DNA from: Corynebacterium urinipleomorphum
GTDB taxonomy: Bacteria > Actinomycetota > Actinomycetes > Mycobacteriales > Mycobacteriaceae
Direction: 5' to 3'
Assembly (NCBI RefSeq): GCF_900155535.1
Contig: NZ_LT706965.1
Span: 571,393-635,392 of the forward strand
Length of the DNA: 64,000 bases
The notes below the pieces were generated by a model that made no database searches, was not told where the DNA came from, and saw nothing but the letters and a program-made list of their open reading frames with translations. Shown here piece by piece: positions 5,378-62,426 of the stretch. The translations under genes were made by a program, and so were the position numbers. The stretch's first letter is position 1, and each line of letters starts with the position of its first letter.

Positions 5378-6613
5378 CTAGCTCTGGTTCGGACGCCAGG
5401 TCGCAGCCGACTGACGGGCCGGCTCCGCAATCGGGGCCTCAGTCCTGTGCAGCGGAGATGCCACGGTCCGCTTTGCACCGGTCGCCGGGGCGGCTTCGCT
5501 ACCGGAGCCGTCGATAAGCGAGCCCTCTTCCTTGCCCGCACGGTATGCGGCGACCAACTTGTTGTGCTCTTTGTACTTGCTCTGAGCGTTAGTGAGCGTG
5601 ACCAGCAGCGACGTTGCCAGAAGGAGTGAGGAAATGACACCTTCAACAACACCGATCAGCTGAATCAGTGCGAGGTCTTGGAGAGTACCCACGCCGAGCA
5701 GCCACACGGCCACGATCATCAAAGCAATGATCGGCAGAGCGGAAATCACCGACGTGGAAATGGAGCGCATCAACGTCTCGTTGACCGCAAGGTTGGTTTC
5801 TTCAGCGTACGTGGAACGGCGGGAATCCAGAACTCCTTCGGTGTTCTCCTTCACCTTGTCGAAGACGATGACGGTGTCGTAGAGCGAGAACGTCAACACA
5901 GTCAACAGACCGATAATCATTGCCGGAGTGACCTCGAGCCCGAAGAGAGCGTAAATGCCGAGGATGACCACACCGTCAAAGAGCAGAGCCACCATCGCAG
6001 CGATGGCCATGTTGCGCTGCAAACGAAGCGCAACATACACGGAAGCTGCCACGAGGAAGATCAACATCGACAACAGCATGCGGTTTGTAATCGTCGAACC
6101 CCAGGATTCGGACACTGTGGAATCACCGATGGCATCCGGGGAGGGCTCGCCCGAAGCGTCGAGCGGCTTGTACTCGTTGTAGATAGCTTCGCGCGCGCTG
6201 TCGATCTGTTCCTGGCTCAGGTGCTCGGAATTGATCTCCAAGGTGCGGGAATCACCTGCACCCACGATTTGGGTCAGTTCCGGAGTGATGCCGGTCGCGT
6301 CGACGAAAGTCTCCTCGACCTGCTCGGCGACGAGCTCTCCAGCGGGCATGGTCATCTTGGTGCCGCCTTCGAAGTCGATGCCCAAGTTGAAGCCACGGAT
6401 CAGCATCGCCGCCGCAGAAATGACGACCAAGACGACCGCAATGATGTACCAGAGCTTGCTTCTGCCGATGAAGTCGATTGCCCCTGTGCCTTCGTAGAGG
6501 CGCTCAATGCCTTTCGAGTGTGCAGCCTTTTCCTGCTCAGATACGGATGTTGTGGAGGCATCCGCGCCGTTGTGCGCCGGCGTGGGGGTCCCGGCGTTCA
6601 GTGAGGTGCTCAT
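5378..6613 (-). CDS. secF: Protein translocase subunit SecF
   Basis: The 411-residue membrane protein has one N-terminal helix (IIAVVLVVISAAAMLI), the signature FDFEGGT-like GIDFEGGTKM at the start of the periplasmic domain, and five more helices including SLYDTVIVFDKVKEN. It works with SecD and YajC on the outer side of SecYEG to drive late steps of export with the proton gradient. The N-terminal and C-terminal cytoplasmic tails (Ala/Pro/Ser-rich) are longer than in E. coli, as in other actinobacteria. ATG start, GGAG upstream; it starts 2 bp after the secD stop. Confidence 0.97.
   Translation of the reverse strand: MSTSLNAGTPTPAHNGADASTTSVSEQEKAAHSKGIERLYEGTGAIDFIGRSKLWYIIAVVLVVISAAAMLIRGFNLGIDFEGGTKMTMPAGELVAEQVEETFVDATGITPELTQIVGAGDSRTLEINSEHLSQEQIDSAREAIYNEYKPLDASGEPSPDAIGDSTVSESWGSTITNRMLLSMLIFLVAASVYVALRLQRNMAIAAMVALLFDGVVILGIYALFGLEVTPAMIIGLLTVLTFSLYDTVIVFDKVKENTEGVLDSRRSTYAEETNLAVNETLMRSISTSVISALPIIALMIVAVWLLGVGTLQDLALIQLIGVVEGVISSLLLATSLLVTLTNAQSKYKEHNKLVAAYRAGKEEGSLIDGSGSEAAPATGAKRTVASPLHRTEAPIAEPARQSAATWRPNQS
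5509..5520 (+). repeat. Dispersed 12-mer CGTCGATAAGCG, copy 1
   Basis: Exact copy. On the complementary strand it encodes Leu-Ile-Asp (CTT ATC GAC) in the SecF C-terminal tail, a poorly constrained region. Confidence 0.9.
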
Positions 6614-6615
6614 TG

Positions 6616-8643: not shown

Positions 8644-8899
8644 GTACGTGTTCTCCTATAAACCTGCTCTATCCACCTCAGGCGGCTGGTTGCCCGCGGT
8701 CGCGGCTTTACGTCCGGGACTTCCCGTACAAGGTGGTTCTGCCGTTTTCTTGTCCCGCCCGGTTAAGACCGGCATAGGCATGCCAGTTCCAGGCCGGGAA
8801 AGGTCCAAAAAGTGATCGTACGTCATGTACCGGACAATGATTAAGCCCGGCGTGCGTTTTTCTCGGCACGTCGGGCTATCTCGATTTATCTAAGCTGTT
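8644..8899. other. yajC-secD intergenic region
   Basis: A 256-bp gap without a plausible gene. It holds the hairpin at 8844-8877 and must contain the secD promoter, which I could not pin down. Confidence 0.5.
8844..8877 (-). terminator. Hairpin downstream of yajC
   Basis: 12-bp stem AGCCCGGCGTGC / GCACGTCGGGCT with one G-T pair and a 10-nt loop. It starts about 22 bp past the yajC stop. The T-run is poor, so it may attenuate transcription into secD rather than end it. Confidence 0.5.
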
Positions 8900-11678: not shown

Positions 11679-12434
11679 TTACTCGCTAGCGAGAGCTTGC
11701 GCGACCTCGTCCGACACCGTCATGTTGGTGTAGACGTTCTGGACGTCGTCGGCGTCCTCCAATGCGTCGATAAGCTTCGCCAGCTTCTTCGCGCCGTCGA
11801 GGTCCAAGTCGACCTCGACCGAGGCGCGGAAATCCTGCTCGGTGTCCTCGACCTCGATTTCAGCCTCGCGGAGTGCGTCGCGCACTGCGTAGAGGTCGGT
11901 CGCCTCCGACACGACCTCGAAGTGCTCGCCCAGGTCGTTGACCTCCTCGGCGCCGGCCTCGAGCACGGCCATGAGTAGATCATCCTCGGTCAGCTCACCC
12001 TTGGCCACGGTGTTCACGCCCTTGCGGCTGAACATGTAGGCGACGGAACCCGACTCACCCAAGTTGCCGCCGTTCTTGGTCATAGCCGTGCGGACTTCTG
12101 TCGCCGCACGGTTGCGGTTGTCGGTCAGGCACTGAATCAGCATGGCCACACCGTTCGGGCCGTACCCCTCGTAAGTGACATCTTCCCAGTTGGATCCGCC
12201 GGCTTCCTCGCCCGAACCGCGCTTACGGGCGCGCTCGATGTTGTCCTTCGGAACAGAGGCCTTCATGGCCTTCTTCATCATGTCGTCGAGCGTCGGGTTG
12301 CCTGCCGGATCTCCGCCGCCGGTGCGAGCCGCGACCTCGATGTCCTTGATCATTTTCGCCCACAACTTGGAGCGCTTCGCATCGTTAGCGGCTTTCTTGT
12401 GCTTAGTTGTAGCCCATTTTGAGTGGCCTGACAT
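11679..12434 (-). CDS. yebC: YebC/PmpR family transcription or translation factor
   Basis: The 251-residue protein begins [15 protein letters not shown], the family hallmark, so I set the start at the ATG at 12434 although the frame stays open further upstream. The conserved [13 protein letters not shown] and [19 protein letters not shown] segments are present. Members bind nucleic acid; some regulate transcription and others have been linked to relief of ribosome stalling. It sits before ruvCAB, its usual place in bacteria. Confidence 0.95.
11765..11775 (+). repeat. Dispersed 12-mer CGTCGATAAGCG, copy 2 (11 of 12)
   Basis: Matches CGTCGATAAGC; the last base is T instead of G. It encodes Leu-Ile-Asp (CTT ATC GAC) on the yebC strand. 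Confidence 0.8.
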
Positions 12435-13447: not shown

Positions 13448-13822
13448 TCACTCCTTGGTTGAGCGGGCGCTGCCGTAGAACTCTGGCATCGGCGCCGTAC
13501 CTGCGAGGCGCAAGGCCCGCACTCCCGGTTTGAGTCTCACAGCTCGGGTCGCCGCGACTGCGTCGTTGTACAGTCGCAGCGACAGATCGACCCGTTGGCG
13601 AGCTGTGTCGAGCGCGCGTCGCGCGGCGCCGTCGTCAAGCGTGTTCGCGGCAATATCCGCCACTGCGTCCCGGTGCTCCACAGCAGCGTCATACGACGCA
13701 CGTGCCCGGTCAAGGCGGATATGCAACCGGTCAAGTCGCCGGGCCGTCAACACTGCCCACACAACCGCTAAACACACAACTGCAGCCACGACGACGAGCG
13801 TGAGTGCCACGAGAGAGCTCAT
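13448..13822 (-). CDS. Conserved membrane-anchored protein of unknown function downstream of pimA
   Basis: The 124-residue protein has one N-terminal transmembrane helix (SLVALTLVVVAAVVCLAVVWAVL). A predicted helical, Arg/Ala-rich cytoplasmic region follows (about residues 27-95, likely coiled coil), then a short Pro-containing tail. Its ATG overlaps the pimA stop by 4 bp, so it is translationally coupled to the PIM pathway genes. I recognise no enzyme motif; a scaffolding or accessory role near the membrane is an inference from context. Confidence 0.8.
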   Translation of the reverse strand: MSSLVALTLVVVAAVVCLAVVWAVLTARRLDRLHIRLDRARASYDAAVEHRDAVADIAANTLDDGAARRALDTARQRVDLSLRLYNDAVAATRAVRLKPGVRALRLAGTAPMPEFYGSARSTKE

Positions 13823-14973: not shown

Positions 14974-15861
14974 TCACCGCTTCCGTGCGGCGCGGTCGGC
15001 GGGCCACATCGGCTGCAAAGCGTGCCAGTCGGCCGGGTGCGCGGCGATATTCGAGGCGAACTGGTCGGCGATGCGCTGGGTGGTCTCGGGCACATCGGTC
15101 ACCTTAATCAGAGGCGACACCGAGTGCCCCCAATCCGGGTCCGCGGACGTGCCTGCGAACCAGGAATGCGCCACGTGGAGGCCGGCCCCAGTGTCCAGAG
15201 CCAGCTTTGCAGGCCCCGCTGGCAACGTTGTCTCCTCGCCGAAGAAGGTCACCGGCACGCCCCGCGGTGTCATGTCCCGTTCCCCCATCAGGCACACGAT
15301 TCCGCCGGCGGCGAGCACTTCCCGCAGCCGATCGTACGGGGGGTTCTCCGAGCCGGTGGCAGCGAGGACCTCGAAGCCGAGGCTCTCGCGGTAAGCCACG
15401 AAAGCGTCGTAAAGCGCCTCGGGGCGCAGTCGTTCCGCGACCGTGGCGAAACCTCTGTACCGGGAGACGAGCCACATACCCGCCATGTCCCAGTTACCCG
15501 AATGCGGCAGGGTGAGGATCAGCCCGTTGCCGCGGGACAATGTGTCATCGAGGTGTTCCCGTCCGCGCACTCCGGCATCGAGCCGTGCGAGCAGCGCCGG
15601 GTCGCCCGCGATTTCGGGGAGGCGGAAGGCCTCATTCCAGTACCGCGCGTACGAGCGCATCGAGTCGCGCACGAGTGCCCGGGTGACGTTTTCCGCGCCG
15701 ACGACGCGAGTAAGGTTGCGGCGCAGCATGTCCGCGCCGCGTCCGTTGTCCGAGGCGAAGTCCGCGCCCGCATTGAACAGCGCCGCAACCATGCGCGGCG
15801 GCACATGTCTGACGGCTTTCCAGCCCGCAATGTATCCGGCCGCGGCGAGACGCTCGGTCAC
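14974..15861 (-). CDS. Phosphatidylinositol mannoside acyltransferase
   Basis: The LpxL/HtrB-family enzyme acylates the mannose of PIM1/PIM2. The HX4D catalytic motif is present (PHSGNWDMAG), followed by GERDMTPRGVPVTFFG. I chose the GTG at 15861 (product about 295 residues beginning TERLAAAGYIAGWKAVR). That is where family similarity begins, and a GGGAGGGAG purine run lies upstream. The frame is open to 16017, but the extra 52 codons overlap pgsA and look non-coding. Equivalent to mycobacterial PatA by position and motif. Confidence 0.92.
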   Translation of the reverse strand: MTERLAAAGYIAGWKAVRHVPPRMVAALFNAGADFASDNGRGADMLRRNLTRVVGAENVTRALVRDSMRSYARYWNEAFRLPEIAGDPALLARLDAGVRGREHLDDTLSRGNGLILTLPHSGNWDMAGMWLVSRYRGFATVAERLRPEALYDAFVAYRESLGFEVLAATGSENPPYDRLREVLAAGGIVCLMGERDMTPRGVPVTFFGEETTLPAGPAKLALDTGAGLHVAHSWFAGTSADPDWGHSVSPLIKVTDVPETTQRIADQFASNIAAHPADWHALQPMWPADRAARKR

Positions 15862-15890: not shown

Positions 15891-16547
15891 CTACCGCGCG
15901 GCTCCTGGTTCCGGGGCACCTGCAGGCGGGGCAATGCGCTGGCTCGCTTCCGGGTCGCGCGAGGCTTTGATGAGGCGCTGCACGACGGTGACCACCGACC
16001 CAGCGGCCAAGATCCACAGCGCGATCTCCAGTGCCAAGTGGACGCCGATTCCTTCGAGGAACAAGCCCCCGACCGCCAAGATGAGACGCTCCGGCCGCTC
16101 GATCAAGCCGCCGTTGACTTTCAGGCCGCCTGCTTCGGCGCGCGCTTTGATGTAGCTGATGGTCTGCGACAATGTCAGCACAACGAGCGCAACGGCGACC
16201 GTCGCCCGGTCTGCGTGGTCAACGTACACGAGCCAGAAGACGATGGCGCCGAACAAGGCGCCGTCGGAAAGCCTGTCACACGAAGCGTCGAGAGTAGCTC
16301 CGAAAGCCGTTCCGCCCCCGCGCAGCCGTGCCATTGTGCCGTCGAGCATGTCGAAGGCGGCGAAGAACGCGGTCAATACCGCAGCCCACACCAGATGTCC
16401 TCCGGGGATGAGCACAACAGCGGCCGCGATCGTGGCTAGGGTGCCCAGGACCGTCACGGCATTCGGAGTGAAACCAAAGCGCAAAAACAGCTTTGCGACG
16501 GGCTCCGCCACCGTCGCCGCCGGTTTCCTCCCGTGCAAACTGAGCAT
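15891..16547 (-). CDS. pgsA: CDP-alcohol phosphatidyltransferase (phosphatidylinositol phosphate synthase type)
   Basis: A membrane protein of 218 residues with the CDP-OH-P signature DX2DGX2AR...GX3DX3D (FDMLDGTMARLRGGG then GATLDASCD). In actinobacteria this locus encodes the enzyme joining CDP-diacylglycerol and inositol phosphate, the first step of PI and PIM synthesis. I set the start at the ATG at 16547, which overlaps the stop of the HIT gene by one base (TGATG). An upstream in-frame start at 16601 would lie entirely inside the HIT gene. Confidence 0.94.
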   Translation of the reverse strand: MLSLHGRKPAATVAEPVAKLFLRFGFTPNAVTVLGTLATIAAAVVLIPGGHLVWAAVLTAFFAAFDMLDGTMARLRGGGTAFGATLDASCDRLSDGALFGAIVFWLVYVDHADRATVAVALVVLTLSQTISYIKARAEAGGLKVNGGLIERPERLILAVGGLFLEGIGVHLALEIALWILAAGSVVTVVQRLIKASRDPEASQRIAPPAGAPEPGAAR

Positions 16548-19397: not shown

Positions 19398-20054
19398 CTA
19401 CGCGCGGCCGTCACCGTCTTCGCCGTCGAGCCCGTCCATATCGCGCAGGCGCTGCCCTGCGTCCCCGTTACGCTGGCGCCGGCTCAGCGCCGCGATCACC
19501 ACGCCACTAAAGAACAGCGCACCGAGCAGCAGCCACAGCCAGGTGTAGCCCGAGCCCGTCTCGTCCGCTTCATCGCTTATCGACGTCGCCTCGTCCCCTT
19601 CCCCCTTTCCACTCCCCGCGGACTCGCCGCCCGGCGCGGTGGTCTCCCCCGTTGCTTGTGCTGAGGCGAAGGTGAAACTGGTGGTGCCTTTCGTGGCGTG
19701 TCCGTCGGAGGAGGTGATCTGGTAACCGATGCGGTACTCCCCCGGCTGCGTATCGATGCCGGAGGGAACCGCAATGCTGATTTCCCGGTCGTTCACTTCT
19801 GGCTCTCCACTGAACAGGACTTCGCCGTCGGCGACGCGGGACAGCGCCACGGTGTTGAAGTCCTCTTTCGGCTGCCCGGAGAATTCCAGGACGAGCTCCG
19901 AGGGGAATTCATCGACTGTTTCATCGATGCCGGGCTGAGCGGAAATCACCGAGTCATGCGCGGACGCCAGCGGCGCGGTGCCGAGCGCGAGCGCTGCGGC
20001 GGCAGCTCCTGCGAACACTGCTCGTGCGGTTCTGGGGATCCTGGTGCGTGCCAT
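19398..20054 (-). CDS. CopC-domain exported copper-binding protein
   Basis: The 218-residue protein has a signal peptide ending in ASA, so the mature chain starts with His-Asp, the usual CopC copper ligands. The CopC fold follows (FPSELVLEFSGQP ... SSDGHATKGTTSFTF, with the second His site). A Gly/Glu/Thr-rich linker leads to a C-terminal transmembrane helix (WLWLLLGALFFSGVVIAAL) and a short charged tail. It would sit on the outer face of the membrane and handle copper. No copD or copper ATPase gene is adjacent. Confidence 0.88.
   Translation of the reverse strand: MARTRIPRTARAVFAGAAAAALALGTAPLASAHDSVISAQPGIDETVDEFPSELVLEFSGQPKEDFNTVALSRVADGEVLFSGEPEVNDREISIAVPSGIDTQPGEYRIGYQITSSDGHATKGTTSFTFASAQATGETTAPGGESAGSGKGEGDEATSISDEADETGSGYTWLWLLLGALFFSGVVIAALSRRQRNGDAGQRLRDMDGLDGEDGDGRA
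19574..19585 (-). repeat. Dispersed 12-mer CGTCGATAAGCG, copy 3
   Basis: Exact copy on the minus strand inside copC, read there as Ser-Ile-Ser with the rare Ile codon ATA, in the low-complexity linker. Confidence 0.9.
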
Positions 20055-20255: not shown

Positions 20256-21746
20256 GTGCTTTCCCGTGACCATACCCAGCGAAGAAAACGGCCCAACCCG
20301 AACAGGTGGCCGTTTTTCGCTGTCGTGTCGCTGGGGTTGCTCATGGTCGCGCTGGATAACTCCATCCTCTATACGGCGCTCCCGGAGCTGGATGCGCAGC
20401 TCGGGGCGACCGCCTCGCAGTCTTTGTGGATCATCAATGCATATCCATTGGTGATCACGGGACTGCTGCTGGGCTCTGGTTCGCTCGGCGACCGCATCGG
20501 TCACCGCCGAATGTTCATGGTGGGGTTGGTCGTTTTTGGTTTGGCGTCCCTCGCCGCCGCATTCTCTCCCACGGTGTGGGCGCTTGTCGCCGCTCGAGCT
20601 TTCTTGGGGGCGGGTGCCGCGACGATGCTTCCCGCCACTCTCGCTCTGGTCAACCAGATCTTCCCGGGGGAACGGGAACGCAACCTGGCTATGAGCATCT
20701 GGGTGTCGGCTGCGGTGCTTGGCGCGGCCCTCGGCCCGGTGGTCGGCGGCGCGCTGCTGGAATTCTTCTGGTGGGGCTCGGTCTTTTTGATCAACGTTCC
20801 CGTGGTGGTGATCACTCTCGTGCTCACCGTCCTGATCGGCCCGCGCAACAAACCGAATCCCGACAAGCACTGGGACCTTGTCTCTTCGGTCTTCGCCCTT
20901 TTCGCCTTGTCGGGTTTGACCATGACCATCAAGGAGGCCGCGCGCCTGGACACGCACCCGGTGACGCTCGCCGTCTCCGCGGTAGTGATGACCATCGGCG
21001 CGATCCTTTTCGCGCACCGGCAGAAAAAGCTCGACGATCCGTTGTTGACCCTCGATGTCTTCTCTAACCCGATCTTCACCGGCGGCGTCATCGCAGCTAC
21101 AGGCGCCATGTTCGTGGAGATCGGGGTGGAGATGACCACCACGCAGCGCCTCCAGCTTGTCGACGGCTTCTCCCCCTTCCATGCCGGCCTAGCCATCGGC
21201 GTTGTTGGCTTCGCCGCCCTTCCGTTCTCCGTCGCCGGCGGCGCAGTGCTCCACCGCATCGGGTTCCGCACGATCGTCTCCGGCGGATTCGCCGCGTGCA
21301 TTGTCGGCGCGCTCATCGCGTGGTGGGGTTCGGCCATCGACAACTTCCCCGTGTTCCTCGGCGGCGTGATCGTTCTCGGTGCCGGCGCGAACTTAGCCAT
21401 GTCTGTGTCCTCCACCGCCATCATCGGCGCCGCCCCGCCGCAGCGTTCGGGCATGGCTGCGGGTGTTGAGGAAGTCTCCTACGAGTTCGGCACTCTCATT
21501 ACCGTCGCGGTTTCCGGCTCCATGCTCACCTCATTGATGCTCACGTTCCTCCCGCCGGAGCTCGCGTCCGCCGGTATGGACGCCATTTACGATCCCGCGA
21601 CCCACGATGCCGCCGCCCCCGCCTACGCCCACGCCCACGAACTCGTGATCGCTTTCCACGCGCTCGCCGCCGCCGTTCTCTGCGCTCTTACCGCCTGGTG
21701 TTTCCGCGGCAACCCGAAGTCACCGGGCGTTTCACGAGACGCATGA
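20256..21746 (+). CDS. MFS exporter, DHA2 (14-helix) drug:H+ antiporter family
   Basis: About 496 residues with 14 predicted membrane segments. Motif D1-like LDNSILYTALPELDAQLGA follows the first helix and the loop 2-3 motif GSLGDRIGHRR is clear, both typical of the EmrB/SmvA/LfrA group. It likely exports cationic or amphipathic compounds with proton exchange. I chose the GTG at 20256, preceded by GGTGGAGGGG; the frame remains open far upstream but crosses copC. It diverges from copC over a 200-bp gap. No regulator gene is adjacent. Confidence 0.9.
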   Translation: MLSRDHTQRRKRPNPNRWPFFAVVSLGLLMVALDNSILYTALPELDAQLGATASQSLWIINAYPLVITGLLLGSGSLGDRIGHRRMFMVGLVVFGLASLAAAFSPTVWALVAARAFLGAGAATMLPATLALVNQIFPGERERNLAMSIWVSAAVLGAALGPVVGGALLEFFWWGSVFLINVPVVVITLVLTVLIGPRNKPNPDKHWDLVSSVFALFALSGLTMTIKEAARLDTHPVTLAVSAVVMTIGAILFAHRQKKLDDPLLTLDVFSNPIFTGGVIAATGAMFVEIGVEMTTTQRLQLVDGFSPFHAGLAIGVVGFAALPFSVAGGAVLHRIGFRTIVSGGFAACIVGALIAWWGSAIDNFPVFLGGVIVLGAGANLAMSVSSTAIIGAAPPQRSGMAAGVEEVSYEFGTLITVAVSGSMLTSLMLTFLPPELASAGMDAIYDPATHDAAAPAYAHAHELVIAFHALAAAVLCALTAWCFRGNPKSPGVSRDA

Positions 21747-22927: not shown

Positions 22928-23569
22928 ATGAACGAACGAATCATCGGCCCAGGCACCGCCACAGAAGAGATCCGTGCGGTGGCTATCACGACGGCATTCG
23001 GATCCTTCACCTCCGGCGGCACGTCCGGGGCGCTTGGCAACGACGCGGACAAACAGGTCATGCTCGCACTGCGCGAATGGGCCGACGTCGTCCTTGTGGG
23101 GTCCGGGACGGTCAAGGCAGAGGACTACGGCCCGGCGGACATTCCTCTCGCGGTGGTGTCGCGCTCCCTCGACTTCGACACAACGGCGAAACTCTTCAGC
23201 GGCACTCCCCCGCTGATTCTCACGCCCGACGAGTCGCTGACCAACGCGAGCCTCGCCGAGCAGCGCGACGCTCTCGCACAGGCAGGTGCAGAACTCGTCG
23301 GGACGGGAACAGGCGGGGCGCAAGAGATCGTCGATACGCTCCGCGCGCGGGGGCTTGGCCGCATCGTGTGCGAGGGAGGCCCGTCGCTGTACGCCGCGAT
23401 GTTCGAAGCATCGCTTATCGACGTCCTCCACCTCACCGCCGCCCCCTACGTCAACGGCGAGCCCGCCGGCCTGTCCGGCGACATCGACGTGGAGCTCGAG
23501 CTGGAGGACGTGCACTCCGCCGGTTCCCATATCTTCGCCCGCTACCGGCGGGTGGGCGCAGGAAACTAG
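22928..23569 (+). CDS. RibD C-terminal-domain reductase (DHFR-like fold)
   Basis: The 213-residue protein has only the reductase half of RibD, an NADPH-dependent DHFR-like fold. Supporting segments are DVVLVGSGTVKAEDYGP near the N-terminus and RIVCEGGPSLYAAMFEASLIDVLHLT near the C-terminus. The substrate is uncertain; it need not be the riboflavin intermediate. I chose the ATG at 22928. The open frame continues upstream, but it crosses two tRNA genes and their terminator, so that part is not coding. Confidence 0.88.
   Translation: MNERIIGPGTATEEIRAVAITTAFGSFTSGGTSGALGNDADKQVMLALREWADVVLVGSGTVKAEDYGPADIPLAVVSRSLDFDTTAKLFSGTPPLILTPDESLTNASLAEQRDALAQAGAELVGTGTGGAQEIVDTLRARGLGRIVCEGGPSLYAAMFEASLIDVLHLTAAPYVNGEPAGLSGDIDVELELEDVHSAGSHIFARYRRVGAGN
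23412..23423 (-). repeat. Dispersed 12-mer CGTCGATAAGCG, copy 4
   Basis: Exact copy on the minus strand. The plus-strand gene reads it as Leu-Ile-Asp (CTT ATC GAC). Confidence 0.9.
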
Positions 23570-25338: not shown

Positions 25339-25350
25339 CGTCGATAAGCG
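25339..25350 (+). repeat. Dispersed 12-mer CGTCGATAAGCG, copy 5 (intergenic)
   Basis: Exact copy directly after the terminator T-run, in the gap between the convergent msrB and hemQ genes. No protein coding explains it. Confidence 0.92.
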
Positions 25351-47415: not shown

Positions 47416-47427
47416 CGTCGATAAGCG
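47416..47427 (+). repeat. Dispersed 12-mer CGTCGATAAGCG, copy 9 (intergenic)
   Basis: Exact copy in the non-coding gap between the divergent DUF4192 and PAC2 genes. Confidence 0.92.
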
Positions 47428-48624: not shown

Positions 48625-51192
48625 GTGACTGACAACGCCGCCGCACCGACGCTCGCCGACAGCATCGCCGACCTCGAAGACGTTCCCGCCGCGCTTATCG
48701 ACGACGCCGTATGGGACACCTTCACCTCCTGGACCACCTCGCGCGGGATTTCCCTCTACCCGGCGCAGGAGGAAGCGTCGCTGGCGCTGCTGGCGGGCGA
48801 TAACGTCATCCTGGCCACCCCGACCGGCTCCGGTAAGTCCATGGTGGCCAACGCCGCCCACTTCATCGCCATGTCGCGCGGCCAGCGCAGCTTCTACACC
48901 GCACCGATCAAGGCGCTGGTGAGCGAGAAATTTTTCTCCCTGTGCGAGATCTTCGGGCCGGAAAACGTGGGGATGATGACGGGCGATGCCACCGTCAACG
49001 GCGACGCCCCGATCATCGCGGCCACAGCCGAGATCGTGGCTAACATCGCGCTGCGCGAGGGAGCGAAGTCCGACATCCGGCAAGTGGTCATGGATGAATT
49101 CCACTACTATTCCGAGCCGGATCGCGGCTGGGCGTGGCAGGTGCCGCTGCTGGAACTGCCCAAAGCCCAGTTCCTGCTCATGTCCGCCACCCTCGGCAAC
49201 ACGAAATGGCTCGAGGACGACCTGACCCGCCGCACCGGGCGGAAAACCACGTTCGTCGGCGGCTCCGAGCGCCCCGTCCCGCTCGACTTCCACTACGTGT
49301 TCACCCCGGTGCACGAGACCATCGAGGAACTGCTGGAAGACGGAAAAGCGCCCATCTACGTGGTGCACTTCTCCCAACGTGAAGCGACGGAGCGGGCGCA
49401 GGCATTGACGTCGATGTCGATTGTCACCGCCGAGGAGAAGGAGGCGATCGCGGAGGCTATCGGCGACTTCAGGTTCACCACCACCTTCGGCAAAACGCTG
49501 TCGAAGCTGCTGCGCCGCGGCATCGGCATCCACCACGCCGGCATGCTGCCCAAGTACCGCCGCCTGGTCGAACGGCTCGCCCAGGCGGGCCACCTCAAGG
49601 TCATCTGCGGCACCGACACCCTCGGCGTGGGCATCAACGTGCCCATCCGCACAGTTCTCATGACCGGTCTGACCAAATTCGACGGCACAAAGCAGCGCAT
49701 TGTGAAATCCCGCGAATTCCACCAGATCGCCGGACGCGCGGGCCGCGCCGGGTACGACACGGAAGGCACCGTCGTCGTCGAGGCGCCCGAGCACGAGATC
49801 GAGAACGTGAAGTTGCGCCGCAAGGCCGGCGACGACCCGAAGAAGCTGAAGAAGATCCGCAAAAAGGCCCCGCGCGACGGCGAAGTCTCCTGGTCGGAGA
49901 ACACCTTCAACCGCCTCACCGAAGCCGAGCCGGAGGAGCTGACCAGCCAGTTCGCGGTGTCCAACTCGATGCTGCTCAACGTCGTGGCGCGCCCCGGCGA
50001 CGGGTACGAGCACATGAAGCACCTCCTGCGCGACAACCACGACACCCGCGCCAAGCAGAACCGCGACATCCTCACCGCCGTCGACCTCTTCCGCGGTCTC
50101 ATCGCCGCCGACGTCGTGGAACGCACCCCGGACTCCCCCGCCTTCCGCCCGTACACGCTGACGGCGGAGCTCGACCGGGACTTCGCGCTCAACCAGCCGC
50201 TCGCACCGTTTGCGCTGGCGTTCTTGACCCTGCTCGACCCCGCGAGCGAGACCTACGACCTCGACGTCATCTCCACCTTCGAAGCGATTCTGGACGACCC
50301 GCGCCAGCTGTTCCAAGCCCAGCAGTCCGCTGCGCGCGGCGAGGAGATCGCGGCGCTCAAAGCCGACGGAGTGGACTACACGGAACGCATGGCGCTCGTC
50401 GAGGATGTCACCTACCCGCAGCCGCTGCGCGAGGAGCTCGAGGACGCTTACGAGACCTTCGTCCAGGGCAACCCGTGGGCGAAGGAATTCGACCTTTCGC
50501 CGAAGTCCGTCGTGCGCGACATGATCGAGCACGCCATGACGTTCTCCGACGTCATCGCCACCTACGGCCTCGCGCGCAGCGAAGGCGTGGTCCTGCGCTA
50601 CCTCACCGACGCATGGCGCACCTTGTCGCATTCCATCCCCGACGCGTACATGACGGAGCGACTCGACGACATCAACGTGTGGCTCGGCGAACTCATCCGC
50701 CAGGTCGATTCTTCGCTTATCGACGAATGGGCCCACATGGCCGACGACACCACCCCCATCAGCCGCGACGACCTGGAACGCGAGTTGGCCTTCGGTGTGG
50801 AGGATCCGACAGCCCTCACCGCCAACCGCCGCGCCTTCACCATCATGGTGCGCAATTACTTCTTCCGTCTCGTGGAGCTCTTCGCCTACGAGAAGGAGAA
50901 GGAACTGGCGGAGATGCTCGACTACATGGACCTCACCGACCAGCCGGACTGGCCGGCTCTCATGGACGACTACTTCGACGAGTACGACGACGTGGACCTG
51001 GACGCCGACGCCCGCGGCCCCGAATACTTCGCGCTCGCCGACGCCGATTCCGGTTCACGGTCCTGGACCGTCACCCAGATCATCAAAGACCCGGACGGCG
51101 ACAACGCATTCCAACTGCACGGCACCGTCGACCTCGACGCCTCCGACGCCGCCGGCGAGGTGCGACTGAGCGCGCTGGAGATGCGCCACTAG
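48625..51192 (+). CDS. DEAD/DEAH-box RNA helicase, HelY-like with DUF3516 C-terminus
   Basis: The 855-residue SF2 helicase of Ski2-like type has motif I ATPTGSGKSMVA, motif II DEFH (VMDEFHYYSEPD), motif III LLMSATLGN and motif VI QIAGRAGRAGYDTEG. The C-terminal 350 residues match the actinobacterial DUF3516 extension and end in an acidic segment. It is probably an RNA helicase in processing or decay. GTG start at 48625. It lies 27 bp after the PAC2 gene and carries two copies of the dispersed 12-mer. Confidence 0.92.
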   Translation: MTDNAAAPTLADSIADLEDVPAALIDDAVWDTFTSWTTSRGISLYPAQEEASLALLAGDNVILATPTGSGKSMVANAAHFIAMSRGQRSFYTAPIKALVSEKFFSLCEIFGPENVGMMTGDATVNGDAPIIAATAEIVANIALREGAKSDIRQVVMDEFHYYSEPDRGWAWQVPLLELPKAQFLLMSATLGNTKWLEDDLTRRTGRKTTFVGGSERPVPLDFHYVFTPVHETIEELLEDGKAPIYVVHFSQREATERAQALTSMSIVTAEEKEAIAEAIGDFRFTTTFGKTLSKLLRRGIGIHHAGMLPKYRRLVERLAQAGHLKVICGTDTLGVGINVPIRTVLMTGLTKFDGTKQRIVKSREFHQIAGRAGRAGYDTEGTVVVEAPEHEIENVKLRRKAGDDPKKLKKIRKKAPRDGEVSWSENTFNRLTEAEPEELTSQFAVSNSMLLNVVARPGDGYEHMKHLLRDNHDTRAKQNRDILTAVDLFRGLIAADVVERTPDSPAFRPYTLTAELDRDFALNQPLAPFALAFLTLLDPASETYDLDVISTFEAILDDPRQLFQAQQSAARGEEIAALKADGVDYTERMALVEDVTYPQPLREELEDAYETFVQGNPWAKEFDLSPKSVVRDMIEHAMTFSDVIATYGLARSEGVVLRYLTDAWRTLSHSIPDAYMTERLDDINVWLGELIRQVDSSLIDEWAHMADDTTPISRDDLERELAFGVEDPTALTANRRAFTIMVRNYFFRLVELFAYEKEKELAEMLDYMDLTDQPDWPALMDDYFDEYDDVDLDADARGPEYFALADADSGSRSWTVTQIIKDPDGDNAFQLHGTVDLDASDAAGEVRLSALEMRH
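48692..48703 (-). repeat. Dispersed 12-mer CGTCGATAAGCG, copy 10
   Basis: Exact copy on the minus strand, 67 bp into the helicase gene, read as Leu-Ile-Asp (CTT ATC GAC). Confidence 0.9.
50714..50725 (-). repeat. Dispersed 12-mer CGTCGATAAGCG, copy 11
   Basis: Exact copy on the minus strand in the DUF3516 part of the helicase gene, again read as Leu-Ile-Asp. Confidence 0.9.
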
Positions 51193-51304: not shown

Positions 51305-52246
51305 ATGAGCACCAAGGAGTACCGCCCGACGCTGGCTCAAATCCGCACGTTCGTCACCATCGCCGAGCACCGGCACTTCGGCACCGCAGCGAACCAGCTG
51401 CAGATCTCCCAGCCCTCGCTGTCCCAGGCGCTCGTCGCCCTGGAAACAGGCTTGGGCATTCAGCTCATAGAGCGCTCCACACGCAAAGTGATTGTCACTC
51501 CGATTGGACAGCGGTTGCTCCCCTACGCGCAGGCCACACTAGAAGCCGCCGATTCCTTTGTGCAGCACTCCCGCGGCGCACACGGTGTGTTGACCGGCCA
51601 GCTCACGTTGGGTGTCATTCCCACCATCGCTCCGTATCTGCTCCCGGAGCTGCTCCGCGTTGCGCAGGAACGCTACCCCGCGCTCGAACCGAAGATCGTC
51701 GAGGAGACAACCCCTGCGCTCATGGAGCAGCTGCGCAGCGGGCAGCTCGACGCAGCGCTGATCGCCTTCCCCACCGGCACGACCGGCCTGACGGAGCTCC
51801 CCCTCTACACCGAGGACTTCGCCATCGCCGTCCCCGACGGACACGTACTCGCCGGCCGGGACGACGTGACACTTTCAGAGCTTGACAAGCTGGACATGCT
51901 GCTCATGGACGACGGCCACTGCCTGCGCGACCAGATCATGGATCTGTGCCGCACCGCCCACCTCGACGTCGCCGGGATGGCCGACTCCGTCACCCGGGCA
52001 TCCTCCCTGACCACCATCATCCAGCTCGTGTCCGCCGGATACGGTGCGACCCTGCTGCCCGTCTCCGCTGTTCCCGTCGAGTGCGCCCGCCCCAACGTTT
52101 CCGTCGCGCGCTTCGCTCCCAGCGTCACCGCCTCCCGCAACGTAGGACTCGTGCACCGCTCATCGTCTACACGAGCCGACGAATTCGTTGCCCTGGGGGA
52201 ATTGATCACGGATGCGTTTGAGGGGACCGTCGATAAGCGCGCGTAG
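51305..52246 (+). CDS. oxyR: Hydrogen-peroxide sensing LysR-type regulator OxyR
   Basis: The 313-residue regulator has an N-terminal LysR helix-turn-helix (HFGTAANQLQISQPSLSQALVALE). Its sensor domain has two cysteines, C206 and C215 (GHCLRDQIMDLC), nine residues apart like C199 and C208 of E. coli OxyR, so disulfide sensing is expected. Length is normal. In corynebacteria OxyR represses catalase and Dps genes in the absence of peroxide. The 112-bp upstream gap is AT-rich. It lies just before hrpA. Confidence 0.94.
   Translation: MSTKEYRPTLAQIRTFVTIAEHRHFGTAANQLQISQPSLSQALVALETGLGIQLIERSTRKVIVTPIGQRLLPYAQATLEAADSFVQHSRGAHGVLTGQLTLGVIPTIAPYLLPELLRVAQERYPALEPKIVEETTPALMEQLRSGQLDAALIAFPTGTTGLTELPLYTEDFAIAVPDGHVLAGRDDVTLSELDKLDMLLMDDGHCLRDQIMDLCRTAHLDVAGMADSVTRASSLTTIIQLVSAGYGATLLPVSAVPVECARPNVSVARFAPSVTASRNVGLVHRSSSTRADEFVALGELITDAFEGTVDKRA
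52228..52239 (+). repeat. Dispersed 12-mer CGTCGATAAGCG, copy 12
   Basis: Exact copy at the extreme 3' end of oxyR, coding Val-Asp-Lys-Arg just before the stop. Confidence 0.9.
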
Positions 52247-52293: not shown

Positions 52294-55200
52294 ATGACGA
52301 AACCTGAACTCACCCGCGACGAGCTCTACCGCCGACTCGACGAACTGCCCATCGCCAGCGTCCGGCGGTTCCAGCGCCGACTGAAAAAAGCGCGGTCCCC
52401 GCACGCGCTCGCGCAGATCAGCGCAGACATGGACGTGGACGCGGCGAAAGTCGCTGACGTGAACACGCACGTCCCAGACATCACGTACCCCGAGGGTCTG
52501 CCCGTTTCCGCGCGGCGCGACGACATCAAGGAACTCATCCGCGACAACCAAGTCGTCGTCATCGCGGGTGAAACCGGCTCGGGCAAGACGACGCAGATCC
52601 CGAAGATGCTGCTCGAACTCGGGCGCGGCCGCCGCGGTCTCATCGGGCACACCCAGCCGCGCCGCATCGCCGCGCGCACCGTCGCCGAGCGCATCGCCGA
52701 CGAACTCGGCCAGGACATCGGCGAGACCGTCGGCTACGCCATTCGTTTCGACGACCGCGTCTCCCCCACCACCGCCGTCAAACTCATGACCGACGGTATT
52801 CTCCTCGCCGAAATGCAGCGCGACCGGTTCCTCAACGCATACGACACGATCATCATCGACGAGGCACACGAACGATCGCTCAACATCGACTTCCTGCTCG
52901 GCTACCTGAAGCGGCTGCTGCCGGCCCGGCCGGACCTCAAAGTCATCATCACCTCAGCGACGATCGATCCGGAGCGCTTCGCCGCGCACTTCGCCGATGC
53001 CTCCGGCGAGCCTGCGCCGATCATCGAGGTCTCCGGGCGCACGTACCCGGTGGAGATCCGCTACCGCCCGCTCGAGACCGAAGTGCCCGCGAAGGACGGG
53101 GGCACGAAAGTCGTCGACATTGACATGCTCGACGGGCTTGTCAGCGCCCTCAAGGAACTCATGGCCGAAGGCAACGGGGACATCCTCTGCTTCTTCGCCT
53201 CCGAGCGCGACATCCGCGACGCCATGGAGGTCATCGAGAAACAGCATTGGCGCGGTGTCGAAGTCACGCCCCTGTTCGGCCGCCTGTCCAACGCCGAGCA
53301 GCACCGCGTGTTCTCCCCACACTCCGGGCGGCGCATCGTGTTGGCGACGAATATCGCCGAGACTTCCCTGACCGTCCCCGGCATCCACTACGTCGTCGAC
53401 ACCGGGCTTGCCCGCATCTCCCGCTACTCCACCCGCACCAAAGTGCAGCGCCTGCCTATCGAGGAGATCTCCCAGGCCAGCGCCAACCAGCGTTCCGGCC
53501 GCTCCGGCCGCATCGCCGACGGCATCGCCATCCGCCTCTACTCCGAGGACAACTTCAACGCCCGCCCCGAATTCACCGACCCGGAAATTCTGCGCACCAA
53601 CCTGGCCAGCGTCATCCTCCAGATGATCAACCTGCGGCTCGGCGACGTCGCCGACTTCCCCTTCGTGCAGCCGCCCGACACCAAATCCGTCCGCGACGGC
53701 CTGCTGCTCCTCCACGAGCTCGGTGCCATCACCGACAAAGAAGACCACGACGCGCCGGTGCTCACCGGCATCGGCCGCGACATCGCGCGCATCCCCGTCG
53801 ACCCGCGCATGGCGCGCATGCTCGTCGAGGCCAACCGCCTCGGCGTGCTCCGCGACGTCACCGTCATCGTCGCCGCCATGACAATCCAGGACGTCCGCGA
53901 ACGCCCCCTCGAGTACCAGGCACAGGCCGACCAAGCCCACGCGCGCTTCAAAGACAAGACCTCGGACTTCCTCGCCTCGCTGAACCTGTGGGAGTACATC
54001 AAAGACTCCCGCGACGAGCTGTCCGGCAACGCGTTCCGCAAACACATGAAGAAAGAGTTCCTCCACTACATGCGCATCCGCGAGTGGTTTGACCTCGTAC
54101 GCCAGCTCCGCGACGCCGAAAAGCAGCTGGGGTGGAAGAATATTTCAGCGGAAGAGGCAGCCACCTCCGGGGAGTCAACGGACCGCGACCCCAGCGCCAT
54201 CCACCAGTCGCTGCTCACGGGCCTGCTATCCAATATCGGCGCCCGCGACGGCAACTCCAAGGAGTTCAAGGGCGCCCGCGGCACCCGCTTCATGATCTTC
54301 CCGGGCTCCGCCCTGGCCAAGAAGCCGCCGGAATTCGTCATGGCAGCCGAACTCGTGGAAACATCCCGCCTGTGGGCGCGCGATGTCGCCGCGATCGATC
54401 CGTCTTGGGTGGAGAAGATCGCCCGCGACCTGCTCAAACACTCGTACTCCGAGCCCGTCTGGTCCCAAAAGCGCGCCGCGCCGATGGTGCACCAGAAATC
54501 CATGCTGTACGGCGTCACCGTTGTCGCCGACCGCCTCGTGCCGTACCACCGCGTCGATATGGAAGCAGCGCGCGACCTGTTCATCCGCCACGCGCTCATC
54601 GACGGCGAATGGAACGCCCACCACGCCTTCCTCAAACACAACGCCACACTCCTCGAAGAAGCAGCGGCCGTCGAGGAGAAGGTCCGCCGCCGCGGCATTG
54701 TCGTCGACGAGGACACGCTCTTCGAGTTCTACGACGAACGGGTCCCCGCCGACATCGGCACCGGCCGTCACTTCGACGCATGGTGGAAGAAGAAACGGCA
54801 GCACGACGCGTCCTTCCTCGACTTCGACCCCGAGGCATTGCTTAACGACGCCTCCGCCGACTCCTCCGAAGCCGCCTTCCCCGACAAATGGCGCCAGGGC
54901 TCCATCAATTACGACCTCCAATACAAGTTCGAGCCCGGCGACCCGTTCGACGGTGTGACAGTGCTTGTTCCCGTTCCGCTGCTCGCCGGGATGGAAGACG
55001 TGGACTTCGACTGGCTTGTTCCTGGTCTGCGCGAGGAATTGGTCACCGAGCTGATCCGCTCTCTGCCCAAGGCACTGCGCAAGACAGTCGTGCCCGCCCC
55101 CGAATTCGCGGAACGCGCCATGGGCAAACTCATCCCGTTCGAAGCACCCATCACCGAGCAACTCGCTGAGGTTCTCCGCTCGCTCGGCGGACACGGCATC

Positions 55201-59079: not shown

Positions 59080-59304
59080 CGATCCCTCGATTTTCCCCTG
59101 CTCATCGCTCCGGTGTTGTTCCGCCGCGTAGACGCGATATTCATCCGCTGCCCCCAGCTATTGCCGTCCTTGTGTCCCTCCTTGAGGTATCCCACTTAAA
59201 CGGGCACAATCGGACATTAAGGGGTTATTCTCCCCACCCGGAGGGAGGCCCACCCCCCGTTCCGAATTGCCCCCGACCGATATGGGGCTGAAAGGGATTG
59301 CCTC
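59080..59304 (+). other. sugR-fruK intergenic region
   Basis: 225 bp with no gene. It should hold the promoter and operator of the fruK-ptsF unit. ATCGGACATTAA at 59209-59220 and the nearby AT-rich stretch are possible parts, but I cannot assign a SugR site with confidence. Confidence 0.45.
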
Positions 59305-60270
59305 GTGATCATTACGTTCACCGCCAACCCCAGCATCGACGCGACAATGAGTATTGACTCACTCGATGCTGGCGGTGTGCTCCGAGTTTCCGAAAGCCGC
59401 CGTGAACCGGGCGGCAAAGGCATCAACGTCTCCAACGCCGTTCTGAAAGCGGGCGAATCGACGCTGGCCATCGTTCCTGCCGCGGACACCGACCCGTTCA
59501 TCGCTCTGGCCGCGGCAGCCGGTATCCCGCTGCAAACCGTGCCGGTTGAGGACGCGGTCCGGACCAACACGGCAGTGACTGAGACGAACGGCCGGACGAC
59601 CAAGTTCAACGAACCCGGTGCGCGACTCACGGACTCGACGTTGAACGGGCTCCAGGAAGCGCTTGTCGACGCCGCGGCCTCGCCAGCAGCGCAGGCTGCC
59701 GTTCTCGCCGGCTCTCTGCCACCCGGCGCTCCAACCGATTGGTACGCGCAACTTATTCGCGCGCTCCGTGAGGCAGACAGGAATCTGCTCATCGCAGTCG
59801 ACACCTCTGACGAACCGCTGCGCCAGCTGGGTAAGCGGTTGGAAGAGGGGGCACCGGACGTCGTCAAGCCGAATGCTTTTGAGCTCGGCCAACTGGCCGG
59901 CCTCGACGGCGCCGAGCTCGAACGGCAAGCCGACAACGGCAACCTCGACGCTGTCGTCGATGCCGCCAAGGAGCTCGTAGCCAAGGGAATCCGCGAGGTG
60001 CTGGTCACCCTCGGTGGTGCAGGCGCTTGCCTGGTCACTTCGGAAGGTGCGTGGCATGCCTCCACCCCGCCGGCACAGGTGAGCTCCACCGTCGGCGCAG
60101 GCGACAGCTCGCTCGCCGGCTACATCCTCGCGCGGCTCGACGGCGCTGACTACCCGGATGCTCTCCGCACCGCCGTCGCCTACGGCACAGCCGCAGCAGC
60201 GAAACCCGGAACGGGAATCCCCTCGCCAGAAGACATCGACCTCGCCCGCACCGAAGTGCGGGGCCTCTAA
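59305..60270 (+). CDS. fruK: 1-phosphofructokinase
   Basis: The 321-residue PfkB-family kinase converts fructose 1-phosphate to fructose 1,6-bisphosphate. The N-terminal GGKGINVSN and the C-terminal anion-hole motif VGAGDSSLAGY (catalytic D267) are present. GTG start with GAAAGG upstream. It is followed after 14 bp by the fructose permease gene, so import and onward metabolism form one transcription unit. Confidence 0.95.
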   Translation: MIITFTANPSIDATMSIDSLDAGGVLRVSESRREPGGKGINVSNAVLKAGESTLAIVPAADTDPFIALAAAAGIPLQTVPVEDAVRTNTAVTETNGRTTKFNEPGARLTDSTLNGLQEALVDAAASPAAQAAVLAGSLPPGAPTDWYAQLIRALREADRNLLIAVDTSDEPLRQLGKRLEEGAPDVVKPNAFELGQLAGLDGAELERQADNGNLDAVVDAAKELVAKGIREVLVTLGGAGACLVTSEGAWHASTPPAQVSSTVGAGDSSLAGYILARLDGADYPDALRTAVAYGTAAAAKPGTGIPSPEDIDLARTEVRGL

Positions 60271-60284
60271 CTGAAGGAAGAACC

Positions 60285-62426
60285 GTGTCATCATCCACCA
60301 TCACACCGGATCTCGTCCGGCTCGACCCTGATTTCGGCGGTACGCCCGCCGAGGTGATTGGCAACCTGGCCGAGCTCGTCGCCAGCGCCGGGCGCACATC
60401 TGAACCACAAGTCCTTGCCGACGCCGCCGCGGCCCGCGAAGAAAAGGCGGGCACAGGCGTCAACGGCCAGGTGGCTATCCCCCACTGCCGCACGTCCGCG
60501 GTGAGCGAACCGACCCTCGCGTTCGCGCGTCTGTCTCGGCCCGTCGATTTCTCGGGTCCGGACGGCGACGCCCAGCTCGTGTTCCTCATCGCCGCGCCGG
60601 AAGGCGGAGGCAAAGAGCACCTGAAGATCCTGTCCAAGCTCGCCCGCGCTCTGGTCCGCGGCGACTTCCTGGACAAGCTGCGCAACGCCTCCGTGCCGGA
60701 AGATGTCGTCGCGGCCGTCGATGAAGTGCTCAACGCCGAGCCGAAAAAGAAGAAGGCTGCTACCAGCGAAACTGCTGAAACCGCGGCTGCCGGCTCGACC
60801 GTCGCTGCCACAACGGCCACCTCCGCGGTCAAGCAGCCCGCAAGCGCACCGAAGAAACGCATCGTCGCGGTCACCTCGTGCGCGACCGGCATCGCTCACA
60901 CTTACATGGCGGCCGACGCACTCGAGCAAGCGGCGAACGCGCGCGACGATGTCGAATTGCGCATCGAACCCCAAGGATCCTCCGGTGGCGACCGCGTCGA
61001 CCAGGCATTCATCGACTCGGCCGACGCCGTGATTTTCGCGCACGACGTTGCCGTTCATGATCGCGAGCGCTTCGCAGGCAAACCAGTCATCGACAGCCCC
61101 GTCAAGCGCGGCATCAACGAGCCGAACACGATGATCGACGAGGCCATCGCCGCAGCCGACAACCCGAACGCCCGCCGCGTTCCGGGCGGCGCCGCCGCGG
61201 CATCCTCCGGTTCCGGTGACGCCCAGGGCGACGTGAGCTGGCCGAAGCGTCTCCAGCAAGCCATCATGACGGGTGTTTCCTACATGGTCCCGTTCGTCGC
61301 CGCTGGCGGTCTACTGCTGGCGCTCGGCTTCCTTGTCGGCGGCTACGACGTGGCTAACGGCTGGCAGACAATTCCGCTCGATTTCTCGCCCGCGAACCTG
61401 CCGGGCCACGACGTGCTTATCGACGGCGAAACCGTCACCTTCGACCGCTCCGGCTGGGCCTTGTATATGGGCGCGGTCCTCTTCGCCATTGGACAGCTAG
61501 CCATGCAGTTCGTGGTGGCCGCGCTATCCGGCTACATCGGGTACGGCATCGCCGGCCGCCCCGGCATCGCCCCGGGCTTCGTCGGTGGCGCTATCTCCGT
61601 CATGGTCGGCGCCGGCTTCATCGGTGGCCTGGTCACCGGTCTGCTGGCGGGTGTCATCGCCTACTGGATCGGTTCGTGGAAGGTGCCGCGCTGGCTCGGT
61701 TCGCTCATGCCCGTGGTGATTATCCCGCTGCTGACATCCCTGATCGTCGGTCTGGTCATGTTCCTGCTGCTGGGTCGCCCGCTGGGCGCGGTCATGACCG
61801 GCCTGCAGAGCTGGCTGGAATCCATGAGCGGCTCCTCCGCGATCCTGCTGGGCGTGATCATCGGTCTGATGATGTGCTTCGACCTGGGTGGCCCGGTCAA
61901 CAAGGCTGCCTACCTCTTCGGTACAGCCGGTCTGTCCGCTGGCACCGACGCCGCGTACGAAATCATGGCAGCCGTGATGATCGCAGGCATGGTCCCGCCG
62001 ATCGCGCTGTCCATCGCAACGTTCCTCCGCTCCAAGCTGTTCACCCCCGCAGAGCAGGAGAACGGCAAGTCCGCGTGGCTGTTGGGCCTGTCCTTCGTCT
62101 CCGAGGGCGCGATCCCGTTCGCGGCTGCTGACCCGTTCCGAGTCATCCCCTCGATGATGCTTGGTGGCGCAGCTGCCGGCGCAACCTCGATGGCGCTGAG
62201 CGTGGGTGCAAAGGCACCTCACGGCGGCATCTTCGTGATCTTCGCCTACGAGCCGTGGTGGGGCATGTTCATCGCTCTCGCAGTCGGTGTGGTCGTTGCG
62301 ACGATCGCCGTGATCGCCGCCAAGCAGCTCTGGCCGAACAAGACGATCGAAGAGGCAGCTCAGGACCACGCTGACGCTACCGCTGACAACCAGACGGATT
62401 CCTCTGCCGCACCGGCAACCGCGTAA
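60285..62426 (+). CDS. ptsF: Fructose-specific PTS enzyme II (EIIABC)
   Basis: The 713-residue fusion runs A-B-C. The EIIA domain has the phosphorylated His at residue 67 (AIPHCR), the EIIB domain has C199 (VTSCATGIAHTYMAADALE), and the EIIC membrane domain runs from about residue 320 to 690. An Ala/Thr/Lys-rich linker joins A and B. It imports fructose as fructose 1-phosphate, using phosphate from HPr. GTG start with GAAGGAAG upstream. The last 20 residues are polar. Confidence 0.96.
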   Translation: MSSSTITPDLVRLDPDFGGTPAEVIGNLAELVASAGRTSEPQVLADAAAAREEKAGTGVNGQVAIPHCRTSAVSEPTLAFARLSRPVDFSGPDGDAQLVFLIAAPEGGGKEHLKILSKLARALVRGDFLDKLRNASVPEDVVAAVDEVLNAEPKKKKAATSETAETAAAGSTVAATTATSAVKQPASAPKKRIVAVTSCATGIAHTYMAADALEQAANARDDVELRIEPQGSSGGDRVDQAFIDSADAVIFAHDVAVHDRERFAGKPVIDSPVKRGINEPNTMIDEAIAAADNPNARRVPGGAAAASSGSGDAQGDVSWPKRLQQAIMTGVSYMVPFVAAGGLLLALGFLVGGYDVANGWQTIPLDFSPANLPGHDVLIDGETVTFDRSGWALYMGAVLFAIGQLAMQFVVAALSGYIGYGIAGRPGIAPGFVGGAISVMVGAGFIGGLVTGLLAGVIAYWIGSWKVPRWLGSLMPVVIIPLLTSLIVGLVMFLLLGRPLGAVMTGLQSWLESMSGSSAILLGVIIGLMMCFDLGGPVNKAAYLFGTAGLSAGTDAAYEIMAAVMIAGMVPPIALSIATFLRSKLFTPAEQENGKSAWLLGLSFVSEGAIPFAAADPFRVIPSMMLGGAAAGATSMALSVGAKAPHGGIFVIFAYEPWWGMFIALAVGVVVATIAVIAAKQLWPNKTIEEAAQDHADATADNQTDSSAAPATA
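61415..61425 (-). repeat. Dispersed 12-mer CGTCGATAAGCG, copy 13 (11 of 12)
   Basis: Matches CGTCGATAAGC on the minus strand, last base A instead of G; ptsF reads Leu-Ile-Asp (CTT ATC GAC). Confidence 0.8.

Follow-up and report, generated by a model that had tools for sequence, protein, structure and literature searches.

Why a single 12-mer, CGTCGATAAGCG, should recur so often in one short length of chromosome is the question raised by a 64,000-nucleotide stretch of Corynebacterium urinipleomorphum (positions 571,393 to 635,392 of contig NZ_LT706965.1, C13:571393-635392 in our coordinates), referred to below as the window. An earlier note, made from the sequence alone, had placed in it 11 exact and two 11-of-12 copies on both strands, and had proposed either an uptake-like sequence or a site for a chromosome-organising protein. 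All these copies were found where it had placed them, the last spanning 61414-61425, together with four more one-mismatch copies, and the 17 exact or one-mismatch matches of the window compare with 0.48 expected from dinucleotide shuffles. By its density, its dispersion, its preference for the chromosome and its phylogeny-bound dialects, which are common to the known uptake sequences, the site to which this 12-mer belongs is probably a DNA uptake sequence of Corynebacterium, by which cells would recognise DNA of their own kind. Somewhat less firmly, we favour a Neisseria-like arrangement in which a G-armed CRTCGNNAAGC password would be spelled in clade dialects and read by a Tad/Flp pilus.

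The expectation that several hundred copies would exist genome-wide proved right. The C. urinipleomorphum assembly (G000; 2,263,348 bases in 13 contigs) holds 251 exact copies (119 on the forward and 132 on the reverse strand), whereas the reversed motif, which served as negative control for the genome-wide counts, gave none; with up to one mismatch allowed, the figures were 755 and 15. In a sample of 864 kb comprising the window and a further 40 stretches, each of 20 kb (38% of the genome), the 12-mer ranked first among all unmasked 12-mers, with 90 copies against 0.12 expected under a second-order model. The core CGTCGNNAAGC, described below, is present 1,152 times in G000 (561 and 591 by strand), about once per 2 kb, against 69 for its reversed control. 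The element is dispersed, short, non-palindromic and far above expectation, as an uptake sequence should be.

The 12-mer is real, but it is just the most frequent form of a longer site, degenerate and strand-polar, that the earlier note had overlooked. Since C precedes all 195 sampled GTCGATAAGC copies with full flanks, the unit is CGTCGATAAGC; the 12th base is variable (G in 90, A in 45, T in 45 and C in 15 of the 195). Both 11-of-12 copies (11765 and 61415) have the full 11-nucleotide core intact, their mismatch being this variable base. Bases 6 and 7 of the core are free as well, and 246 further CGTCGNNAAGC sites have a like flank. The core thus has nine fixed bases in two parts, 5 + 2N + 4, is not its own reverse complement and, as the note had observed of the 12-mer, is neither palindromic nor tandem. 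Read 5' to 3', the layout is a G-rich arm of 22 nucleotides, a gap of 5 nucleotides, GGNGN and CGTCGNNAAGC. At arm positions -32 to -11, the 446 sites of the G000 sample have 49% G and 19% C, compared with 37% and 28% at 553 one-substitution near misses and 33% and 30% at 31 reversed-pattern sites; near misses and sites thus stand as 553 to 446, background making up part of the 553. The two commonest gene frames account for 142 of the 197 AT-centre sites (102 antisense and 40 sense), and there the arm's extra G sits at wobble positions regardless of gene strand, while the arms of 32 intergenic sites also have extra G but no clear periodicity. For this reason the three-base rhythm of the arm is seen to follow the coding frame, and the G-rich arm itself looks like a property of the DNA. 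The core sites of the window are the following, with host genes named from family searches:

4164..4174, minus strand: core CGTCGTCAAGC
5509..5519, plus: core CGTCGATAAGC, exact 12-mer, in secF
11765..11775, plus: core CGTCGATAAGC, 12th base T
13630..13640, plus: core CGTCGTCAAGC, outside called genes
15405..15415, plus: core CGTCGTAAAGC
16262..16272, plus: core CGTCGGAAAGC
16490..16500, minus: core CGTCGCAAAGC
19575..19585, minus: core CGTCGATAAGC, exact 12-mer with G-rich arm, in a copC-like gene
21155..21165, minus: core CGTCGACAAGC
23413..23423, minus: core CGTCGATAAGC, exact 12-mer, in a RibD-like reductase gene
25339..25349, plus: core CGTCGATAAGC, exact 12-mer, outside called genes
26408..26418, minus: core CGTCGTCAAGC
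30203..30213, plus: core CGTCGATAAGC, exact 12-mer, in an rRNA-methyltransferase-like gene
34571..34581, minus: core CGTCGTTAAGC, in a polyphosphate glucokinase gene
36718..36728, minus: core CGTCGGTAAGC
38386..38396, plus: core CGTCGGAAAGC
40375..40385, minus: core CGTCGATAAGC, exact 12-mer, in a methyltransferase-like gene
41298..41308, plus: core CGTCGATAAGC, exact 12-mer, same gene as 40375
41566..41576, minus: core CGTCGTAAAGC, same gene as 40375
47416..47426, plus: core CGTCGATAAGC, exact 12-mer with strong G-rich arm, outside called genes
48693..48703, minus: core CGTCGATAAGC, exact 12-mer, in a helicase gene
50715..50725, minus: core CGTCGATAAGC, exact 12-mer, same helicase gene as 48693
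52228..52238, plus: core CGTCGATAAGC, exact 12-mer, end of an oxyR-like gene
54840..54850, minus: core CGTCGTTAAGC
59661..59671, minus: core CGTCGACAAGC, in a 1-phosphofructokinase gene
59859..59869, plus: core CGTCGTCAAGC, same 1-phosphofructokinase gene as 59661
61415..61425, minus: core CGTCGATAAGC, 12th base A, in a fructose phosphotransferase system (PTS) gene
63596..63606, minus: core CGTCGACAAGC, outside called genes

Of the hosts that the note had called unrelated, family searches bear out SecF, a RibD-like reductase, two methyltransferase-like proteins, a helicase, an OxyR-like protein and a fructose PTS protein; for the supposed copC there is a CopC-like match, but its score lies below the family cut-off. 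The two copies taken to be intergenic, 25339 and 47416, do lie outside called genes.

Most sites (87%) are genic, mainly as CTT NNC GAC on the gene strand, and codon usage or a recurring peptide motif had to be considered as the source of the pattern. Synonymous shuffling of the 732 called genes of the 864-kb sample (30 shuffles) yielded about one tenth of the genic core count: 387 CGTCGNNAAGC were observed against 41 (standard deviation 5, maximum 53), and 163 CGTCGATAAGC against 6.4 (maximum 12). No shuffle out of 30 reached the observed number, and the sites occur in both orientations, in several frames and in intergenic DNA (55 cores in the 153 kb outside called genes), so that we give this explanation almost no credence. 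The enrichment exceeds the codon-aware expectation in the 38% of the genome sampled and is not confined to the window; a count close to that expectation, with enrichment in the window alone, would have spoken against the original claim. Antisense genic sites outnumber sense ones by 291 to 96. This excess is due to the peptides available, since occupancy is similar in both orientations: the site is carried by 276 of 1,749 Leu-X-Asp tripeptides (16%) and by 63 of 330 Val-[VADEG]-Lys tripeptides (19%). CTT makes up 8% of the leucine codons, and 276 of the 1,736 CTT leucine codons lie within a site.

Dispersed over-represented oligonucleotides are also known as HIP1 in cyanobacteria and as Chi, KOPS and AIMS, HIP1 being a palindromic octamer and the other three strand-biased. 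The Corynebacterium site resembles them in dispersion and abundance but is unlike them in being neither palindromic nor strand-biased, and it belongs neither with HIP1 nor with Chi, KOPS or AIMS. In the 864 kb, 209 sites were on the plus strand and 237 on the minus strand (p = 0.20), and no strand bias was found in two 400-kb stretches with GC skew mostly of one sign or in the window. Mean spacing was 1.9 kb with a coefficient of variation of 0.87, more even than random, and close pairs were scarce, with 40 gaps shorter than 300 bp against 64 expected. The lack of strand bias and the spacing argue against Chi, KOPS, origin-to-terminus organisers and terminator-forming inverted pairs of the Haemophilus type. 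An intracellular protein for chromosome organisation or segregation, such as a nucleoid protein or an SMC-type loader, could bind an evenly spread site of this kind, and the even spacing, the scarcity of close pairs, the genome-wide presence and the depletion in plasmids and phages described below would suit it. The absence of strand polarity in the stretches examined and the location of most sites in genes, down to the CTT codons just counted, do not, and this second option of the earlier note, although it keeps some probability, is unlikely, and the balance of evidence is on the side of uptake. A recombination signal of the Chi type, recognised by a helicase-nuclease when breaks are repaired, would likewise be over-represented, polar, partly G-rich and scarce in the plasmids and phages examined, but the strands are even, the spelling varies within one genus, and nine fixed bases plus an arm far exceed the length of known Chi sites, which makes such a signal quite improbable.

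We also rejected an insertion sequence or mobile repeat as the origin of most sites, because their surroundings can be aligned and their turnover is mostly by substitution. Two site-free stretches, C13:38514-48642 and C10:89984-101552, carry what by eye resemble genes for heavy-metal ATPases and for heme/iron uptake, and are possibly acquired islands.

In ten stretches (362 kb) from ten of 32 matched Corynebacterium plasmids, there were 11 cores of the CGTCG form (CGTCGNNAAGC), 7 reversed controls and 4 cores of the CATCG form (CATCGNNAAGC), where about 184 cores would be expected at the density of G000 itself. Of these 11 CGTCG cores, seven fall between 5.8 and 13.1 kb in the C. striatum plasmid pTP10, the rest of whose 50 kb has none; the segment at 4.5-14 kb holds tetAB, pyrD, uppP and mshC, which suggests that it is chromosomal in origin. 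A similar origin is suggested for the aac(3)-XI piece of a second C. striatum plasmid, with two cores in or next to that gene at 15.3-15.8 kb of the stretch. Two stretches of 50 kb, from two of the Corynebacterium phages listed, had one CGTCG core each, and zero and two CATCG cores. The site is therefore chromosomal and near absent from the plasmids and phages examined, as uptake sequences are. If the site labelled self DNA for a system of defence or modification, be it as a methylation target or as a tag exempting DNA from interference, mobile DNA would also be nearly without sites and there might be dialects; however, the fixed 5 + 2N + 4 core and the long one-sided arm are unlike a methyltransferase target, and restriction targets are usually avoided rather than enriched, so that we hold such a label to be slightly less probable still than a Chi-like signal.

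The motif extends to related Corynebacterium. Among 242 genomes of the genus, the exact 12-mer occurred 0 to 331 times per genome, against at most 3 in any of 95 genomes from the family's other genera. Taking at least 150 cores as motif-bearing, 171 of the 242 have the CGTCG core (195 to 1,964 copies, median 1,090; reversed controls 20 to 119); the highest count, 1,964, comes from G200, an assembly with 7% contamination, and the next, 1,901, from G237. Of the 71 CGTCG-poor genomes, 17 have at least 150 CATCG cores (159 to 1,184). Thus, 188 genomes carry one dialect or the other and 54 carry neither, and the two dialects are largely exclusive. G024 has both, with 352 CGTCG and 1,337 CATCG cores (3 and 31, respectively, in 60 kb), perhaps because it is midway through a change of dialect or has two readers.

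The CATCG spelling emerged from a de novo motif search in eight genomes poor in the 12-mer, 100 kb being taken from each; it disclosed CATCGNNAAGC in G001 and G027, with the same kind of arm, and other CGTCGNNAAGC centres in G056 and, fewer, in G054. In G012, which lacks both dialects, it found a different dense motif, CGCGRCGTCAT (45 in 100 kb), without a G-rich arm, possibly a far-diverged dialect. No such motif appeared in the 100 kb from G007, G021 or G121, and 14 more neither-dialect genomes (40-80 kb each) had no motif like the site in copy number and length. An apparent GACTTTTTGGAC repeat of G001 was set aside as a dialect candidate, as were the CRISPR-like repeats dominating the k-mer counts of G007 and G054. 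As separate observations, two of these 14 genomes, G049 and G230, have a weak excess of GGTGGCGTCGA, similar to the left half of the site (GGNGN-CGTCG-A), and two others, G207 and G232, share with G121 and G021, all four being GC-rich, an enrichment of the palindromic CTCGNCGAG (60 kb of G207 hold 72 copies where 6 are expected). For C. jeikeium and C. urealyticum, PMC5217627 prints repeats similar to those of G054.

Sites in other genomes were compared with the G000 sample by best alignment, "aligned" referring here to position and not implying orthology. The stretches used of G009, G184, G010 and G056 contain 33, 25, 23 and 58 CGTCG sites, respectively; 31, 23, 16 and 3 of these aligned, and 23, 16, 5 and 1 had a CGTCG core in G000. 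For CATCG the starting numbers were 56 sites in G001 and 44 in G027, of which 9 and 8 aligned; G000 had CGTCG at nine of these 17 (three from G001, six from G027) and CATCG at none. In G027, a segment that includes a pair of CATCG sites roughly 1.6 kb apart is found three times in 40 kb, and since three of the nine switched sites are copies belonging to this repeated segment, the distinct figure is 7 of 15. In an 18-taxon tree of the helicase, the three CATCG taxa form one clade (support 100/100) among CGTCG taxa, with deeper nesting supported at 80-86 and motif-less taxa on long branches. Together, the clade and the aligned switches indicate that the spelling changed at many positions, apparently in a single dialect change within this sample, and that, as far as a single-gene tree can tell, dialects follow phylogeny. 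Such joint respelling of hundreds of sites would be easier by a recombination drive than by selection site by site, a further argument against a chromosome organiser.

With regard to the machinery, the tad locus of G000 encodes TadA (TIGR03819, 461 bits), two T2SSF proteins (TadB and TadC), a Flp-like pilin (DUF4244), a weak TadE and TadF (TIGR03816, 80 bits), and is preceded by a frame that reads as TadZ-like. Its ATPase is 92% identical to that of Corynebacterium sp. Marseille-P3884, the nearest named relative found, and 78-79% identical to those of C. tuscaniense and C. meitnerae. G000 also has ComEA (SLBB plus HHH_3) followed by ComEC. Across the 242 genomes, ComEC was matched in 241, a T2SSE (TadA-type) ATPase in 239, TadF in 241 and ComEA in 242. 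Being nearly universal, none of them marks the motif-bearing species; motif-less genomes tend towards lower T2SSE scores, which we read as phylogenetic distance. By analogy, TadE and TadF are candidate receptors, but a search for the reader by residue match would be confounded because the three CATCG taxa form one clade. In the actinobacterium Micrococcus luteus, transformation proceeds without comG, through comEA, comEC and Flp/Tad pili (PMC6370729, in the part available). Corynebacterium has the same actinobacterial combination of comEA, comEC and Tad/Flp, here as genes alone; it differs in its site, no uptake sequence being mentioned for M. luteus in that part of the source (PMC6370729).

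Among known uptake sequences, those of the Pasteurellaceae have a short core with a longer flanking consensus and are mostly genic and on both strands, the Haemophilus core being accompanied by AT-rich tracts. The Corynebacterium site is alike in its short core and longer flank, its location mostly in genes and its use of both strands, but its flank is G-rich and not AT-rich, and it has few close pairs. The DNA uptake sequences of the Neisseriaceae, which have ComP as receptor, come in eight dialects, one species (Simonsiella) having two related dialects, and in, for example, 943 and 4,265 copies with one-mismatch ratios of 1.45 and 1.15 (PMC3630211). Alike are the thousand or so or more copies per genome, the dialects that follow phylogeny, the two-dialect genome (compare G024) and the atypical distribution on mobile elements (PMC3630211, PMC7371117). 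The differences are that the phylum is another, that type IVa pili are replaced by a predicted Tad/Flp pilus, and that the core is C[G/A]TCGNNAAGC, with a degenerate centre and a G-rich arm.

Several points weigh against an uptake sequence. The depletion in mobile DNA is equally expected of other chromosome-specific sites, and the close pairs of terminator-forming Haemophilus uptake sequences are scarce here. We know of no precedent for a long G-rich arm among known uptake sequences, and the arm is weak in G056. Seven more CGTCG-rich genomes have 150 to 165 CATCG cores, which, with G024, means that dialect exclusivity is not strict. In G000, TadE is below its cut-off and comEC reads in two frames (C13:121452-123028 of this assembly), while other high-copy genomes, such as G172, G009 and G184, have a single open frame. 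ComEA scores below the curated cut-off in all 242 genomes, and its model also matches other helix-hairpin-helix proteins. The 54 genomes with neither dialect all have ComEC, TadF and ComEA, and all but G204 have the ATPase; since motif-less species also have them, these genes permit the uptake reading and do not prove it. No DNA reader for the site emerged from a search that went no further. Among the literature matches listed, none reports competence for Corynebacterium, and none an earlier uptake sequence or this motif there, with all preprints and most subscription journals outside the search. A literature search for the 10-mer gave matches that, by title, concern other organisms, and the available part of PMC5217627 gives for Corynebacterium CRISPR-related motif pairs only.

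If the site is nevertheless an uptake sequence, capture of free DNA carrying it would fall to a minor pilin of the predicted Tad/Flp pilus, after which the DNA would be pulled across the cell envelope and handed to ComEA and ComEC, resulting in preferential uptake of own-kind DNA. Fragments bearing sites would be taken up and recombined more often, and by this molecular drive sites would accumulate; changes in the reader protein, presumably part of the pilus, would create dialects.

To our knowledge, uptake sequences come from two Gram-negative families, Neisseriaceae and Pasteurellaceae, and why they arose there is debated. If the reading is true, Corynebacterium would have an independently evolved uptake sequence outside these families, and a genus not known to be transformable would have long practised kin-selective natural transformation. 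An actinobacterial case, with an outer mycomembrane and another class of pilus, would allow the origin of passwords, dialect switching and the isolation of species to be compared. Natural competence in Corynebacterium would become directly testable, now that a sequence for the DNA to carry is proposed, and the sites may help to tell foreign from native DNA in these genomes, of which pTP10 is an indication. Should uptake turn out to be the wrong explanation, another is still needed for the polar, dialect-bearing sites that 188 of the 242 genomes hold in numbers from 150 to almost two thousand each.

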